64,000 bases of DNA from Prochlorococcus sp. AG-347-I19 (GTDB lineage Bacteria; Cyanobacteriota; Cyanobacteriia; PCC-6307; Cyanobiaceae). The position numbers were made by a program, and so were the translations under genes. This document shows positions 21,854 to 58,711 of this stretch, piece by piece. The first letter of the stretch is position 1. Each line of letters opens with the position of its first letter. Under the pieces are notes generated by a model. The model saw only the letters and a list, made by a program, of their open reading frames with translations, had not been told where the DNA came from and did no database searches. The DNA is taken from NCBI GenBank assembly GCA_003279105.1, contig QCBO01000003.1, positions 1 through 64,000 of the forward strand. Reading direction: 5' to 3'.

Positions 21854-22303
21854 CTTGCTTTTCAGCGGTTTTCTAATTTGACTTAGGAAAAAACTAGGGA
21901 AAATGATCTCCTTTTTAGGAGATCTTCTTGCGGCTTTTCCATATAGTTTATAGAAATTTATTAAATTTTTTAGGATATAAACTTGCCTTATATATAGGTA
22001 GAGTTGGTTGCTATCCTCATTGGACAATGGCTACTAAGTATTGAAGGAATTTTTAATCGATCTTTGGCAGAATCATCACGAGACATATCATGCAGCTTAT
22101 GGCATAGGTGAAGTAATAGTTATTTTGGTAATTTATAATCGCTTACTCAAAAAATATCAGTAACAAGAAACCCTTCCAGAAATTCCAACTACTAAAAGGG
22201 TTATTAAATCGACTCGTGACTATATAGAATCAATTTATGTCTTTCAGCAAATGTAGCTTTTGATGACGAGGTTTGGCCTTAATTAATTTGTAGCAATAAT
22301 TTT

Positions 22304-31991: not shown

Positions 31992-32180
31992 GGTATTTTG
32001 CAGTTAATGAGAATCCCGTTCCCTACTCCCATTTCATGCGTCCAGAGATATAAACTTGGATGAACGTTAATGAACGATAACATCTTCAGAAAAATTCCGC
32101 GAGAGGAATTTTTACTAATTTTTCTCAAAAAATTTACTTTTCATAAATAGTATAAATAAGCTTTTTTTATAATACTTAAA

Positions 32181-42766: not shown

Positions 42767-43036
42767 ATGGATCCTAAGTACTCATTTGGTTGTAGCACTA
42801 GCAAACCCAACGGATGCCTACTAAATCCCGAAGGCAGCAGAATCATCTTTTTCGAAGAATGCAAAAATTCTCCTAAACCTAATTTAAAAATTTATACTCA
42901 TCTTTTCTACACAAATCACCTTGGAGAACCTGGAGGGTACAAATCCTCTGAAAAACTCAACATAGATTCAGCCTGGGAAAAATGGCACGAACTGCACCAA
43001 AAAGGATGGACAGAAGTATCTCATAATTACGGATAA
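42767..43036 (+). CDS. DUF1651-like protein
   Basis: AWEKWHELHQKGWTEVSHNY C-terminal motif. Confidence 0.65.
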   Translation: MDPKYSFGCSTSKPNGCLLNPEGSRIIFFEECKNSPKPNLKIYTHLFYTNHLGEPGGYKSSEKLNIDSAWEKWHELHQKGWTEVSHNYG

Positions 43037-49022: not shown

Positions 49023-51134
49023 CTAGTTTGGAACAATTATTACTGAGCATGCTTTTAATTCCGGTTGTTTTGATATCGGGCATGACTTTTCATGCATCAA
49101 AGAGTTTACTTCACACATATTTTTTTGACTAAAACCCCAATGCATTGGTAAAAAAACTGTACCTGCTTTAATTTTGTCAGTAATCTGAACTTTTGCTTGG
49201 ACTTCCCCCCTTTTGGATTTAATTTTTACTATTTCATCATTTTTGATTTTTAAAGATAAAGCATCTTTAGAATTAATTTCCAATAACGGTTCTGGATTCT
49301 TTTTTGTAAGTTTTTGAACTTTAGAAGTTCTTGTCATTGTATGCCATTGACTTAGATATCTTCCAATTGTCAAAATTAGTGGGTACTCATCTGAAGGGGG
49401 TTCAGCCAACCCTATAGGATCATCGATACAAAAATTTGCTTTGCCAGTCTCAGTTGGGAAATAACCATCTTCATATAATCTTTTTGAAGATGTACTAGGT
49501 ACGCTGCCGTTAGGATAAGGCCATTGTTGAGGACCATGATTTTTTAATAATTGATATGATAACCCGCTCATATCGCATAATCTTTTTGTAGTCGTTTTTA
49601 AAAATTCGTCATAAACTTCCGATGAAGATTCATATTCAAATTGTTTGAAATAACCTATTTTCTGTCCTAATTCAGCAAATATTTGCCAATCTGGTTTTGA
49701 ATTTTTATACGATTCTCTGAAAGATGGGCAAAGAGTTACTCTTCTTTCTGAATTTGTCATAACACCATCTTTTTCGCTCCATTGAGCTGCGGGCAATACT
49801 AGATGAGCATATTTAATTGATTCACTTTGTTCATAAGATTCATTGAGGATAATTAAAGGACATTTTAAAAGTGCTTTTTTTACAAAGTTTAAATTAGGCA
49901 TGCTAACCAAAGGGTTCGTAGCTGCAATCCACCAAATTTTCACAGATCCTTTTTTTATAGCTTCTATTTGTTCAAATGCAGATAGACCCTGTTTTGCAGA
50001 TATCTTTCCCTCAGGGAACCCCCATATTTTTTCAATTTCATTCCTATCTATTTTATTTTTTACAAACCTATATCCTGGAAGAAGGTGCGATAGTCCTCCT
50101 GCTTCTCTCCCACCCATAGCGTTTGGTTGGCCAGTTAAGGAAAAAGGACCAGAACCTTCTTTGCCTATTTGGCCGGTCATTAGATGAAGATTTATTAGCC
50201 CATTTACTGCTGCTGTACCCTCTTGCCTTTGATTCAAACCCATCGACCAAAGACTTAAAACATTTTTGCTTTCTCCCCATAATTTTGCAATATCAATAAT
50301 TGTTTTCTCGGATATATTGCAAATTTCACTTATTTTTTTTAAATCCCATTTTTGTATATGTTTTACAAAATCAAAATAGCTTTCGGTCGACTTATCAATG
50401 AAATTTTGATCAGTTAATTGATTCTTATAAAGATAATTCGCAATCCCAATAAATAAAAATAGATCTGTTCCAGAAGAAATTTGTAAGTAAAAATCTGCTA
50501 TGGATGAGGTTTCAGTTTCTCTTGGATCAATTACTATTACTTTTAAATTATCATTTACGTTTCTTTTACGTTTTTTAATTCGATCAAAAAGAACGGGATG
50601 ACATTCTGCTGTATTTGTCCCTATTAATAAAATTAAAGAGCAATGATCAATATCTTCGTAACAACAAGGTGGGCCATCAGAGCCAAAACTTCTGTTATAT
50701 CCAGCTACTGCTGAGCTCATACATAGTCTTGAATTAGCATCAAAATTATTTGTGCCTATTGCTCCCTTGAGAAGCTTTTGGGCTACGTAATAATCTTCAG
50801 TATGAAATTGACCTGAGCCATACATAGCTATTGAATCAGGTCCATAATTTTTTATAGAACTCAAAATATTCTCTTTCAAAATTTCGTATGATTCATCCCA
50901 GGAAATTTCTTTAAATTCTTCATTTAAATTTTCCCTATAGAGTGGTTCTTTTAATCTCCCGTCTTTTAAAGTCTCACATACTGTTGCTCCTTTTATGCAC
51001 AATTTACCATGAGTTGAAGGACTATCCCTATCTCCACTTACTAACCATTTATCATCAGAAACCGAACTATTAGGCTTCATTTTTAAACCACAGCCAACAC
51101 CGCAATATGGGCATTGACTTTTAGTAAAATTCAT
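49023..51134 (-). CDS. narB: Ferredoxin-dependent assimilatory nitrate reductase
   Basis: CPYCGVGCGLKM [4Fe-4S]; GTNTAECHPVLFDRI; MTGQIGKEGSGPFSLTGQPNAMGGREAG. Confidence 0.95.
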   Translation of the reverse strand: MNFTKSQCPYCGVGCGLKMKPNSSVSDDKWLVSGDRDSPSTHGKLCIKGATVCETLKDGRLKEPLYRENLNEEFKEISWDESYEILKENILSSIKNYGPDSIAMYGSGQFHTEDYYVAQKLLKGAIGTNNFDANSRLCMSSAVAGYNRSFGSDGPPCCYEDIDHCSLILLIGTNTAECHPVLFDRIKKRKRNVNDNLKVIVIDPRETETSSIADFYLQISSGTDLFLFIGIANYLYKNQLTDQNFIDKSTESYFDFVKHIQKWDLKKISEICNISEKTIIDIAKLWGESKNVLSLWSMGLNQRQEGTAAVNGLINLHLMTGQIGKEGSGPFSLTGQPNAMGGREAGGLSHLLPGYRFVKNKIDRNEIEKIWGFPEGKISAKQGLSAFEQIEAIKKGSVKIWWIAATNPLVSMPNLNFVKKALLKCPLIILNESYEQSESIKYAHLVLPAAQWSEKDGVMTNSERRVTLCPSFRESYKNSKPDWQIFAELGQKIGYFKQFEYESSSEVYDEFLKTTTKRLCDMSGLSYQLLKNHGPQQWPYPNGSVPSTSSKRLYEDGYFPTETGKANFCIDDPIGLAEPPSDEYPLILTIGRYLSQWHTMTRTSKVQKLTKKNPEPLLEINSKDALSLKIKNDEIVKIKSKRGEVQAKVQITDKIKAGTVFLPMHWGFSQKNMCEVNSLMHEKSCPISKQPELKACSVIIVPN

Positions 51135-51169
51135 AAAATTTCTTTTATAAATATCTAAAAAGTTATTGG

Positions 51170-52723
51170 TTAAACATAATTTTCAGCTTTTTCGCCTTCA
51201 TAAGCATCCGCGAATGATCCTTGAGGTTCCTTTAAAAAGAAATAACAGAAGAATCCAACTATTAATCCTGCTATACCTAAAACTTGGAAGAAGGCACTAT
51301 TTGAAGCAGCAATTATTTCTGGAGAAGGATCTTTACCACCACCCATCCATAAAGGTAAAAGGCTATAAATATTTAGATAAGTTACCGCACCAACATTTCC
51401 ATAAGCCCCAACCAATCCAGCTATTTGTCCTGTTACTCTTTTTTTAACTAAGGGAACTAAAGCAAAAGTTGAACCTTCTCCTGATTGTACAAAAAATGAA
51501 CAAAGCATCGTTAAAAATACAGCCATAAGAATTCCCGCTGATCCTGTAAAAGTTCCAGGTTTTATTAAAGACATCAATAGATATCCAAACCCTAATCCCA
51601 TAGTTAGGAATCCCATTGTATTTTTTCTATTGCCTGTTCTGTCAGATATCAATCCTCCTGCAGGTCTAGCTATTAAATTCACAAATGCATAACATGATGC
51701 AAGAATTCCGGCTACAGCTTTAGGTAAATCAAATGTAAATTCAAAGAAACTAGGAAGCATTGAAACTACTGCCAATTCTGATCCAAAATTTACGATATAA
51801 GTTAATTCCAAGATCGCTACTTGTTTGAATTCATATCTATCTTCTTTAGGGTAAATTTTAGTACCATTTAATAATTCAATATTAGTTCTTATAATTCCCC
51901 AAGTTTGGAAAATAAACCAAGCTAAAACTGCGATTAAGGCTATTGGATAAGTAGATGAAGTAAGGAAACCTACTTTTTGAAGTCTCCAACATAGGACTGA
52001 AAGAATTGCTGCGAATGGGACATTCATTCCAATTAAACCCCAGAAATCTCTTATACTCGTTACTTCTAAACCAGCTGTTTTTGCAGGCCTTTGATAAGGT
52101 TTTCCTGGAGGTGTATCAGTCACACTAAAGAAATAAATAATTCCATAAACGAAAGAAATAATTCCTGTAAGAGCAATAGCTCCCCTCCAATTAAGTACAG
52201 CTCCAGTAGGCAACTCAAACCCTCCTGAAAAAGACAAGAATCCAGCTACGGCAACAAGAGAAAGAGCAGAAAAAGCAGATCCAAAATTTCCCCATCCTCC
52301 ATATATTCCCTCAGCCAAACCAATTTCTTTCGGTGGGAACCACTCAGAGACCATTCTTATTCCGATAACAAAACCTGCTCCTACTATTGATAAAAGCAAT
52401 CTCGCAATAACAAGTTGATTGAAGTCTTGAGCACTAGCAAATAATAAACACGGCACGACAGAAAATATCAAAATTGTTGAGTAAGTTTTTCTTGGGCCGA
52501 ATTTATCCAATAACATTCCAATCAAAACTCTTGCAGGGATAGTCAAAGCGACATTACATATTGCTACTGTTCTAATTTGAGCAACAGATAAACCTAAATC
52601 GGATTTAACAGTAGTTGCAAGAGGTGCAAGGTTAAACCAAACAACAAAAGTAAGGAAAAAGGCAAACCAGGTAAGGTGAAGAGTTCTATACCTGCCATTT
52701 AAAGACCAAACGTCACTTAACAT
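51170..52723 (-). CDS. napA: MFS nitrate/nitrite transporter (NrtP/NapA type)
   Basis: MFS nitrate-porter features: MVSEWFPPKEIGLAEGIYGGWGNFGSA; gene order with narB. Confidence 0.92.
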   Translation of the reverse strand: MLSDVWSLNGRYRTLHLTWFAFFLTFVVWFNLAPLATTVKSDLGLSVAQIRTVAICNVALTIPARVLIGMLLDKFGPRKTYSTILIFSVVPCLLFASAQDFNQLVIARLLLSIVGAGFVIGIRMVSEWFPPKEIGLAEGIYGGWGNFGSAFSALSLVAVAGFLSFSGGFELPTGAVLNWRGAIALTGIISFVYGIIYFFSVTDTPPGKPYQRPAKTAGLEVTSIRDFWGLIGMNVPFAAILSVLCWRLQKVGFLTSSTYPIALIAVLAWFIFQTWGIIRTNIELLNGTKIYPKEDRYEFKQVAILELTYIVNFGSELAVVSMLPSFFEFTFDLPKAVAGILASCYAFVNLIARPAGGLISDRTGNRKNTMGFLTMGLGFGYLLMSLIKPGTFTGSAGILMAVFLTMLCSFFVQSGEGSTFALVPLVKKRVTGQIAGLVGAYGNVGAVTYLNIYSLLPLWMGGGKDPSPEIIAASNSAFFQVLGIAGLIVGFFCYFFLKEPQGSFADAYEGEKAENYV

Positions 52724-52893
52724 GAAAATTTTTCGAGATTAATTTTAAGCAATTTATATTTCGATCAATGCATTTATTTGTATTATTTAATACGAAATCT
52801 AGTTTTTAAGAAATGCAACTTTTTTAAAAGGCTAGAATTAATAGTCAGCACTAATAAAATCAAAATTGGGGAAAATTAGTAATCTGATTATTG

Positions 52894-52907
52894 GTATTAA
52901 CCGATAC
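52894..52907. promoter_or_regulatory. NtcA-type binding site GTAN8TAC
   Basis: GTATTAACCGATAC in the napA/mobA divergent intergenic region. Confidence 0.7.
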
Positions 52908-52940
52908 ATAAAGTACTCGTGGAAAAATATTGCCTAAGTT

Positions 52941-53546
52941 ATGGAAATAAAACTTAAAAAATTTAAAGCATTCATTTTGGCTGGAGGCAAGAGTTCAAGG
53001 ATGGGATCTGATAAAGCATTAATTAAACATCATGAAGGAGGTAATTGGCTGACTCACAAAATAAAAATACTAAATAACCTTAATTTAGAGACTTTTGTAA
53101 TAACAAATTATACTTCTCATTTAAAGGAAGTTGATAAAAGCAATAATGTTGAGTTTATTTCAGATGCCCAACCCTTTGATGGACCATTAACTTGTATAGA
53201 ACAAATTTTTTCATCTTTTAAAAAAACTACTAAAAATATCCTTATTGTCCCAGTCGATATGCCTAATTTGGATACAAAATTAATTTATTCACTTTTTAAA
53301 TCATGGGAAGAAAATCAAAATTTTGCGTTAATATCCCATGATGGAATTTTTGCACAACCATTATTCGGAATTTATCCCATCAATGAAGAAAATCATTTTA
53401 AATTAAAAAAAAAGTTATCCTCTGGGAAGAAAAATTTTCTCGGATGGGTTGATCAAATTCCACATAAATATTTCTATGCAAAAAATGGAGATTTAATTAA
53501 TATAAATTCCAAGAGAGAATTCTTAAATATGAATAATGGGATTTAA
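52941..53546 (+). CDS. mobA: Molybdenum cofactor guanylyltransferase MobA
   Basis: AFILAGGKSSRMGSDKALI; VPVDMPNLD. Confidence 0.92.
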   Translation: MEIKLKKFKAFILAGGKSSRMGSDKALIKHHEGGNWLTHKIKILNNLNLETFVITNYTSHLKEVDKSNNVEFISDAQPFDGPLTCIEQIFSSFKKTTKNILIVPVDMPNLDTKLIYSLFKSWEENQNFALISHDGIFAQPLFGIYPINEENHFKLKKKLSSGKKNFLGWVDQIPHKYFYAKNGDLININSKREFLNMNNGI

Positions 53547-54597
53547 GCAATTGGAGGACAATAGAAAAAGAAAGTTAAAAGTTTTAAGGATATCTCTTAA
53601 ACAAAATTGCAATTTTTCGTGTATTTACTGTAAGCCTGAGAACTATAGTTTGGATGTTTTAAATATTGAACAATTTAAAAAGTTAATTTTAGTCAGTTGC
53701 CGATTAGGGGTAAATTCTTTAAGAATCACTGGAGGAGAACCTTTATTGAGTTCTCAATTAGATGAACTTCTTTATGAAATTAAATCGCAAAGATTAGAAG
53801 AATCAAATCCAGTAGCTAATTTACAGGATATTTCTCTAACCACAAATGGATATTTGCTCTCTAAGAAAAAAGCTAATGAGCTTTTTAAAAATGGTTTAGA
53901 TCGCATAACAGTAAGTTTAGATGCGATTGATCCTGATATTTTTTCAAACATGATTGGAGAGGAAAATAAAATTATTGGCAAAGAAAAATTATTTACTGTC
54001 CTTGAAGGAATAGATCATGCAATTAATGCTGGATTTAATCCAAAGGCGGGGAAATTAAAAATAAATGCAGTTATAAAAAAAGAGATTAATGATAATCAAA
54101 TTTTTGAATTAGTTGATTTTGCAAAAAAAAGGTCTATAGAAATTCGTTTCATTGAGTATATGGACGTAGGGATATCTAATAATTGGCAGCCATCAGATGT
54201 TTTTTTCTCTGAAAGAATTATTAGGCTACTAAAGAAGAAACATCGATTAAAAGACTACGGAAGAAAGGAGGGGCAAACCGCTAATAGATGGTACATGAGT
54301 GATTCAAATAGTTTTGTAAGTACAATCTCTTCAATAAGTAATCCTTTTTGTTCAGACTGTAATAGATTGCGGATAACTAGCGATGGTTATGCTTATACAT
54401 GTCTTTTTTCTAATGAAGGTATAAATCTAAACCCATGGTTGTCTCTACCAATTAATCTCCATGAATTGGAAAATAAAATCAAGAGCATTTGGGAAGCTAG
54501 AGAAGATAACTATAGTGAAGATCGATTTAAAGTATTAGAGAAAACAACTGAAAAAAATCAAAAAATTCATCCATCAATGTCATATCTTGGGGGATAA
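53536..54597 (+). CDS. moaA: GTP 3',8-cyclase MoaA (radical SAM)
   Basis: CNFSCIYCKPE; LRITGGEPLL; NPFCSDCNRLRITSDG. Confidence 0.95.
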   Translation: MGFKQLEDNRKRKLKVLRISLKQNCNFSCIYCKPENYSLDVLNIEQFKKLILVSCRLGVNSLRITGGEPLLSSQLDELLYEIKSQRLEESNPVANLQDISLTTNGYLLSKKKANELFKNGLDRITVSLDAIDPDIFSNMIGEENKIIGKEKLFTVLEGIDHAINAGFNPKAGKLKINAVIKKEINDNQIFELVDFAKKRSIEIRFIEYMDVGISNNWQPSDVFFSERIIRLLKKKHRLKDYGRKEGQTANRWYMSDSNSFVSTISSISNPFCSDCNRLRITSDGYAYTCLFSNEGINLNPWLSLPINLHELENKIKSIWEAREDNYSEDRFKVLEKTTEKNQKIHPSMSYLGG

Positions 54598-54672: not shown

Positions 54673-54813
54673 ATGCGTTTAGCGATCTTACTTGGTTTTA
54701 TTTTAGGGGTAACTCACGGAACTCTTGTTTCCGAAAGTTATTCTGCAAACAATTATGAAAATAATCAATTATTTTTTACTCAAAAAAATTCAAATATATT
54801 TTCTTCACTTTAA
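54673..54813 (+). CDS. Small secreted-like peptide, 46 aa
   Basis: Own translation: MRLAILLGFILGVTHGTLVSESYSANNYENNQLFFTQKNSNIFSSL. Confidence 0.45.
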   Translation: MRLAILLGFILGVTHGTLVSESYSANNYENNQLFFTQKNSNIFSSL

Positions 54814-54891
54814 AATTTAATTTCTTATTTTTTATAAGTTTTTGTATTGCTATTAACATCTTGTAAACTAAATTATACTTATAGTTAAAAT

Positions 54892-54905
54892 GTAGCGTAG
54901 ACTAC
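54892..54905. promoter_or_regulatory. NtcA-type palindrome GTAN8TAC near predicted TSS
   Basis: tGTAgcgtagacTACa, just downstream of TATAGT (54880-54885). Confidence 0.5.
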
Positions 54906-54910
54906 ATAAA

Positions 54911-54957
54911 CGTTCATCTCGTTTTACGAGCCGCATTAAGATTGAAGCCAAGGAACG
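54911..54957 (+). ncRNA. Candidate glutamine riboswitch (Downstream-peptide motif-like)
   Basis: CGTTC...GAACG outer pairing, CTCGT-TTT-ACGAG inner hairpin, CCGCATTAAGATTGAAGCCAAG conserved-like core. Confidence 0.65.
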
Positions 54958-54973
54958 GGGACTTCAGTCAAAA

Positions 54974-55306
54974 ATGAAATTTAGTCACATAACTATTATG
55001 TCTAATAACGTATCTACCTCAGTAAGTAGTAACAATATTACTGCTGTATTTGCAGGTTTTCTGGGAGCATTTATTGTTGGTTCTCTTGGAGTCCAACTTG
55101 TAAGAACCCAAAAGCCTTCTTTTCAATCTCAACCATTGAAAGTTCAACCAGTTATCGCTCATCAATCAACTTTATGGGCAGCTTTAGGAGAACAAGATAC
55201 TCCTATAGTTAAAAATAAAGTTTCTAATGCAAAAACTACAGGAGTTGTCCCTGTTATAGGTTCTGAAGCAACTCTTTGGGCTCCTCTAGGTTTAGGTAAT
55301 TATTAA
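54974..55306 (+). CDS. Small membrane protein with tandem TLWAxLG motif, downstream of riboswitch candidate
   Basis: ORF; alternative start at 54998 (MSNNVST...). Confidence 0.7.
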   Translation: MKFSHITIMSNNVSTSVSSNNITAVFAGFLGAFIVGSLGVQLVRTQKPSFQSQPLKVQPVIAHQSTLWAALGEQDTPIVKNKVSNAKTTGVVPVIGSEATLWAPLGLGNY

Positions 55307-55321: not shown

Positions 55322-55352
55322 AAAAAAAGGGGGTTTTTAACCCCCTTTTTTT
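55322..55352 (+). terminator. Rho-independent terminator
   Basis: aaaaaaagggggtttttaacccccttttttt. Confidence 0.85.
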
Positions 55353-55602
55353 ATTAATTGCATTAAAGGATGATTGAAAATTTTCAATCCAATAAATGGA
55401 TAACTAATAATTAAATCAGAGTTTGAAAACAATGTAATCGTAGATACCAACAACTTTTTTATTAATTGATTATAAATAAAAAACAAGAGTTAACCGGTTC
55501 AAATTTGTTGACTCTGAGGTTTTAACCGTTGACTCCTTATCTACTTCTAGTTGTGACTCGCTAGTTTCAAGATTCAAAAACGGTATTTATTTACCTTAAA
55601 TT

Positions 55603-58561: not shown

Positions 58562-58711
58562 ATGATAAAAAAATATTTGTAAAAAAAAGAGATTGTTTTT
58601 AGCTAAGAAACAAACTCTCAATTACCTAATTCTTACATGAAAATTTCAAGTAAGCTTTCAGATCTTAACTGATTTTTTTTTATAGTAAATCCGTAAAAAT
58701 GCTTTTGTAAT

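Follow-up and report, generated by a model that had tools for sequence, protein, structure and literature searches.

The riboswitch identified in this study belongs to the Glutamine-II class and is the putative control element of a small membrane protein gene that closes the nitrate cluster of Prochlorococcus sp. AG-347-I19. It lies at 54908-54967 on the forward strand of the window (the whole stretch of 64,000 nucleotides that was analysed), and is preceded by a 14 bp palindrome at the predicted start of transcription, which is a probable NtcA operator and/or 5' hairpin. The riboswitch class is known already, and its target and architecture here appear to be undescribed in the literature searched. 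The arrangement as a whole can be read, with the balance of probability modestly in favour, as a double gate by which nitrogen status would control a small membrane protein, itself a candidate brake on nitrate use.

A cmscan search against all Rfam families matched 54908-54967 at full length to the Glutamine-II aptamer (RF01704, earlier called Downstream-peptide), at 64.9 bits (gathering score 33) and an E-value of 2e-13, whereas the glnA model (Glutamine-I, RF01739) scored 21.3 bits at the same place, under its cut-off of 35. The earlier note, made from the letters of the DNA, had proposed an architecture of the glnA or Downstream-peptide type; with both covariance models run, the strong Downstream-peptide match bears out the glutamine riboswitch, and the glnA-type identity was dropped. 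The inner hairpin of that proposal, CTCGT/ACGAG, can be read at 54918-54922/54926-54930. The pairing of CGTTC (54911-54915) with GAACG (54953-54957) also stands, although not as the outer stem it was taken for: a P3 hairpin, GATTGAAG ... CTTCAGTC, had been overlooked at 54940-54969 (strands 54940-54947/54962-54969), and its presence makes the CGTTC/GAACG helix a pseudoknot.

Pairing was assessed in an alignment of four HL and two LLI sequences together with one paralogue from the same genome. Standard pairs occupied 97.4% of pair cells, palindrome stem included, compared with 28-40% in a control in which the partners were slid out of register, and three pairs had changed on both sides, two pairs of P3 being altered in this way. 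The pseudoknot is invariant across the alignment and is therefore uninformative in this test. Alignment to the crystallised Glutamine-II RNA, in which the ligand site is formed from C1, G2, G18, C19, C39 and G40, showed that all of these contacts are kept, as is A33:G42. Judged from these features of its sequence, the segment is a genuine Glutamine-II class riboswitch. Glutamine binding has been shown for the class, and ON switching for a Prochlorococcus type 2 riboswitch; by analogy, the RNA at 54908-54967 would itself bind glutamine.

The genome (1.46 Mb, 26 contigs) contains four Glutamine-II riboswitches, two of them within the window; of 200 genomes from the genus, 195 have at least one. 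The second copy in the window, at 32007-32069 on the reverse strand, precedes a 56-aa ORF and is an exact match to the Prochlorococcus RS01 RNA that was crystallised, so that the class can be regarded as known and structurally understood, and the riboswitch described here as a further member of it. Weinberg et al. observed that Glutamine-II leaders stand before short ORFs of unassigned function, and the nitrate-cluster gene may be among those ORFs.

The promoter has a -10 box, TATAGT, at 54880-54885, which is invariant in the aligned HL loci; an alternative, TATACT, varies. The palindrome GTAGCGTAGACTAC, a perfect GTAN8TAC, occupies 54892-54905 (predicted +1 to +14), and extends to TGTAGCGTAGACTACA at 54891-54906. 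Both elements are where the earlier note had placed them, and its proposal that the palindrome overlaps the likely transcription start is also consistent with the data: from the -10 spacing, transcription would start at G54892, within the palindrome, which agrees with the mapped start of Yfr6, the 33-aa Downstream-peptide locus of MED4. Yfr6 starts at a G after a TATA element and its ORF begins at nt 97; in the orthologue from the present genome the ORF begins at about nt 98 if the first G of the palindrome is taken as +1. The level of Yfr6 drops upon nitrogen depletion. Similarly, Weinberg et al. placed the transcription start about 20 nt before the motif, and the predicted distance from start to aptamer here is 19 nt (14 + 5).

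The association between palindrome and aptamer extends well beyond this locus. The window holds a single TGTAGN6CTACA where 0.02 would be expected, and three of the 11 GTAGN6CTAC sites in the genome each precede a different one of its four Glutamine-II aptamers by 5 nt, the copy at 32007-32069 being the sole one with no GTAN8TAC palindrome. Among 164 distinct Glutamine-II leaders from loci in many genera of the family, GTAN8TAC lies 3-9 nt upstream of the aptamer in 157, compared with 0.66 in shuffled sequences. When 151 leaders were aligned on the palindrome, a TATAAT logo appeared that ends 6 nt before it, and the palindrome therefore begins at the expected +1. This near-universal +1 palindrome unites observations on the NtcA motif and on the glutamine riboswitch into one recurrent regulatory module.

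That the palindrome is an NtcA site is rather probable on the sequence pattern, and repression by NtcA is the best reading of it. For nirP1, repression by NtcA from a site that overlaps the start is established, NtcA is reported to repress gifA/gifB, and, according to a review, PMM1846, another gene with a type 2 riboswitch, has an NtcA motif upstream. The GTA and TAC elements are invariant across the 157 leaders, as those of an NtcA site would be; two leaders depart from this, GCAGC-AACC-GCTGC (L252) and GTGGC-AACC-GCTAC (L177), which have lost GTA/TAC and kept the pairing. These departures would better fit a palindrome that acts purely as RNA, as a 5'-terminal hairpin protecting the riboswitch leader or helping it to fold, and so would the exact coincidence of the palindrome with the predicted +1, a folding energy of -3 to -6 kcal/mol, changes at pair 4 that are always two-sided, and a symmetry that ends at +1, given that the T at -1 is 85% conserved and its partner base is not. 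Against this, the HL stem here is merely 4 bp, and the closing pair is the RNA-incompatible CA at nine distinct sites compared with the RNA-compatible (wobble) TG at six. As DNA, CA and TG are mirror images, and with CA as common as TG, selection for RNA pairing is not apparent at that position. A purely RNA role is considered rather unlikely; both the operator and the hairpin role may act together, with NtcA repression remaining the favoured reading.

Activation of the gene by NtcA was rejected as a candidate, as the palindrome lies at +1 and therefore cannot be a -41.5 activator site, and there is no N22-TAN3T after it. Two more GTAN8TAC sites, at 52780-52793 and 52894-52907 in the napA-mobA intergenic region, probably serve NtcA in activating the nitrate operons.

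The controlled ORF (54974-55306, forward strand) encodes 110 aa from the ATG at 54974 or 102 aa from the ATG at 54998. The shorter form is the more likely, since LLI homologues start at the codon equivalent to ATG 54998 and the codons between the two vary mostly non-synonymously among HL genomes. In HL genomes an inverted repeat, ACATAA-CTA-TTATGT (54988-55000), spans the second ATG and may hide the start codon. Masking of the start at 54974 by UUCAU/AUGAA pairing, seen in one fold, was dropped owing to its absence in the paralogue and at LLI loci. Hydropathy predicts a single N-terminal membrane helix at about residues 20-45, followed by a short tail with TLWxxLG repeats (TLWAALG and TLWAPLG); the protein has two Trp and no Cys. 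A short form, in which one LW motif is present, occurs in several clades of non-marine type. A terminator, AAAAAAAGGGGG-TTTTTAA-CCCCCTTTTTTT, can be read from the sequence at 55322-55353 on the same strand, and is absent from the terminator scan listing.

The protein matched no Pfam family at an E-value of 1 and none above cut-off in Pfam and NCBIfam together. DUF4278 in particular gave no match here (the paralogue at L003 does match it), and NirP1, PirN (DUF1830) and IF17 were dropped as identities for lack of family matches. No homologue was found outside the picocyanobacteria among 294 genomes sampled across the phylum. A phage origin of the gene was also rejected, no DNA match being present in the phage collection.

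The earlier note placed the gene next to the nitrate island; it in fact lies within it, as the last gene of a cluster with the order NirA-Moa-NarM-NarB-NapA-MobA-MoaA, of which NarB and NapA (reverse strand) and MobA and MoaA (forward strand) occupy 49023-54597. Between MoaA and the riboswitch gene is an unannotated ORF of 46 aa, MRLAILLGFILGVTHG... (54673-54813, forward strand), which is conserved with the nitrate cluster and is the gene's upstream partner: a small ORF of the MR(L/F)A type stands upstream of the homologue in 13 of 13 loci, including LLI, Synechococcus and short-form clades. With mobA-moaA and this ORF on the same strand as the gene, and no strong terminator found between the moaA side and the gene in the terminator scan, the gene might also be transcribed from the moaA operon, leaving the riboswitch promoter with little physiological effect. 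However, a separate promoter, palindrome and aptamer are conserved in the HL and LLI clades, and read-through RNA would carry the aptamer too, making this explanation improbable.

The gene is tied to nitrate use in the genus and in the family. Among Prochlorococcus genomes at least 90% complete, tallied from genome listings, all 17 that have narB carry it at full length and none of the 49 lacking narB does (Fisher 4e-16), 3 of those 49 carrying fragments. Conservation among HL genomes alone would be weak evidence because these are close relatives; the family-wide test does not depend on it. There, a profile search found homologues in 83 of 300 genomes, all 83 with narB, and in 0 of 123 narB-negative genomes, and in all 20 loci across the family the homologue is part of the nitrate cluster, close to NarB and NapA. 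NapA was found in 24 of 24 carriers tested and in 9 of 56 narB genomes that lack the gene (p about 2e-13), so that the distribution of the gene tracks the MFS permease, not nitrate reductase. When the DNA beside the permease was searched in the nine exceptions, no homologue was detected in eight, and in the ninth the contig ends there.

In the three fragment-bearing genomes and three other narB-negative ones, a 3' piece of the gene alone is present at high identity, fused to unrelated upstream DNA and with no riboswitch; on their sequence, these fragments are scars of nitrate-island loss. In most of the loci L079-L084, the 3' fragment is joined to a MEPKYSFGC.../MDPKYSFGC... gene that resembles the ORF at 42767 of the window.

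The riboswitch before this gene is restricted to HL and LLI Prochlorococcus, where the promoter, palindrome and Glutamine-II aptamer are placed between the upstream small ORF and the gene; the aptamer was found in 41 of 42 HL genomes and at all four LLI loci checked. In marine Synechococcus the gene directly follows the small ORF, MRFAISLGMLLGMSHGW..., with no nearby Glutamine-II hit at cut-off, and the switch is thus not essential to the function of the gene. The HL exception, AG-388-D03, has the gene elsewhere, with no nitrate genes within 6 kb and no riboswitch; its copy has a different leader, AACTTTC...GGGGAAGTT, where the riboswitch would be. By motif, YRG/DUF4278-like peptides lie downstream of 131 of the 164 leaders and the nitrate-cluster protein downstream of 23. 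The simplest reading of the switch's origin at this gene, going by these sequences, would be that a complete operator-aptamer leader, of the kind usual before YRG/DUF4278-like peptides, was captured. In the LLI nitrate cluster (positions 1250-1528 of L128, and other loci), the riboswitch gene is directly preceded by a small ORF that contains two DUF4278-like motifs. In several marine Synechococcus genomes (L188-L192), a Glutamine-II riboswitch with a YRG-repeat peptide is found some 11-18 kb away from the nitrate-cluster gene and shares its strand.

Under the double-gate model, NtcA on the palindrome would block the promoter at low nitrogen and high 2-oxoglutarate; when glutamine is plentiful, the pseudoknot would close and translation would be turned on, as others have shown for the class. 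Both gates point in the same direction, such that the protein would be made only under nitrogen sufficiency. The earlier note had arrived at the same expectation, which agrees by analogy with the behaviour of the Prochlorococcus type 2 riboswitch and with the over-start repression of nirP1. Counted against the model are the Synechococcus copies with no switch, the eight NapA genomes with no homologue, the AG-388-D03 copy, and the two leaders (L252, L177) that give up GTA/TAC yet still pair.

What such a protein would do is best explained, by analogy with NrtC/PII, as braking nitrate import, given a membrane protein made under nitrogen sufficiency and tied to the permease. Its target would be the MFS nitrate permease NapA or NapA's partners, a tentative assignment that falls somewhat short of even probability. 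NrtP of one cyanobacterium, as cited in PMC4390861, was reported to lack post-translational regulation, which speaks against a brake. A further step, which we regard as speculative, would make the protein a dedicated picocyanobacterial inhibitor of NapA, controlled in Prochlorococcus by an NtcA operator and a Glutamine-II riboswitch, so that glutamine would shut off import through RNA rather than through PII and NrtC. Alternatively, the protein may help NapA-type nitrate assimilation as an assembly or coupling factor, its level being higher when nitrogen metabolism is brisk. The strict tie to NapA and narB fits a helper, as do the decay of the gene once the nitrate island is lost and the unswitched Synechococcus copies. 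However, a helper needed for nitrate use would be expected to be induced under nitrogen limitation, like napA/narB, and an NtcA site over the start combined with a glutamine ON switch would give the opposite. A helper role is judged rather unlikely, and the brake on import is the preferred reading.

The element resembles other Glutamine-II leaders in its covariance model match, pseudoknot, ligand contacts and place before a short ORF; it differs from them in its target, which has no DUF4278 match and is a membrane protein encoded in the nitrate cluster. The arrangement recalls gifB/IF17 of Synechocystis, a small regulator made at nitrogen excess through NtcA and a glutamine riboswitch, but the riboswitch class and the protein are others, and here the nitrate system, not glutamine synthetase, is the probable partner. 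NirP1, the nitrite reductase inhibitor, is likewise a small nitrate-assimilation protein repressed by NtcA at its start site. It is defined by an invariant Cys and three Trp and is absent from Prochlorococcus, some strains of which excrete nitrite; the present protein, with no Cys, two Trp and a membrane helix, falls outside that definition. The present protein would do what the regulatory domain of NrtC does, with PII, at the ABC nitrate transporter, namely shut off uptake in the presence of ammonium; it differs in being a separate small protein that accompanies an MFS permease, and narB genomes without the gene mostly lack NapA.

Marine picocyanobacteria use NapA and have no NrtC/PII handle by which to shut off nitrate uptake; one review calls the regulation of GS in these organisms unclear. 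In the literature searched, which was covered in part, no paper was found that names the gene or mentions it as part of nitrate assimilation. A riboswitch-controlled, NapA-linked small protein is a concrete candidate for the uptake shut-off. Elsewhere in the window, Rfam matches were recorded on the reverse strand to Yfr13 (22183-22280) and Yfr19 (58574-58655).
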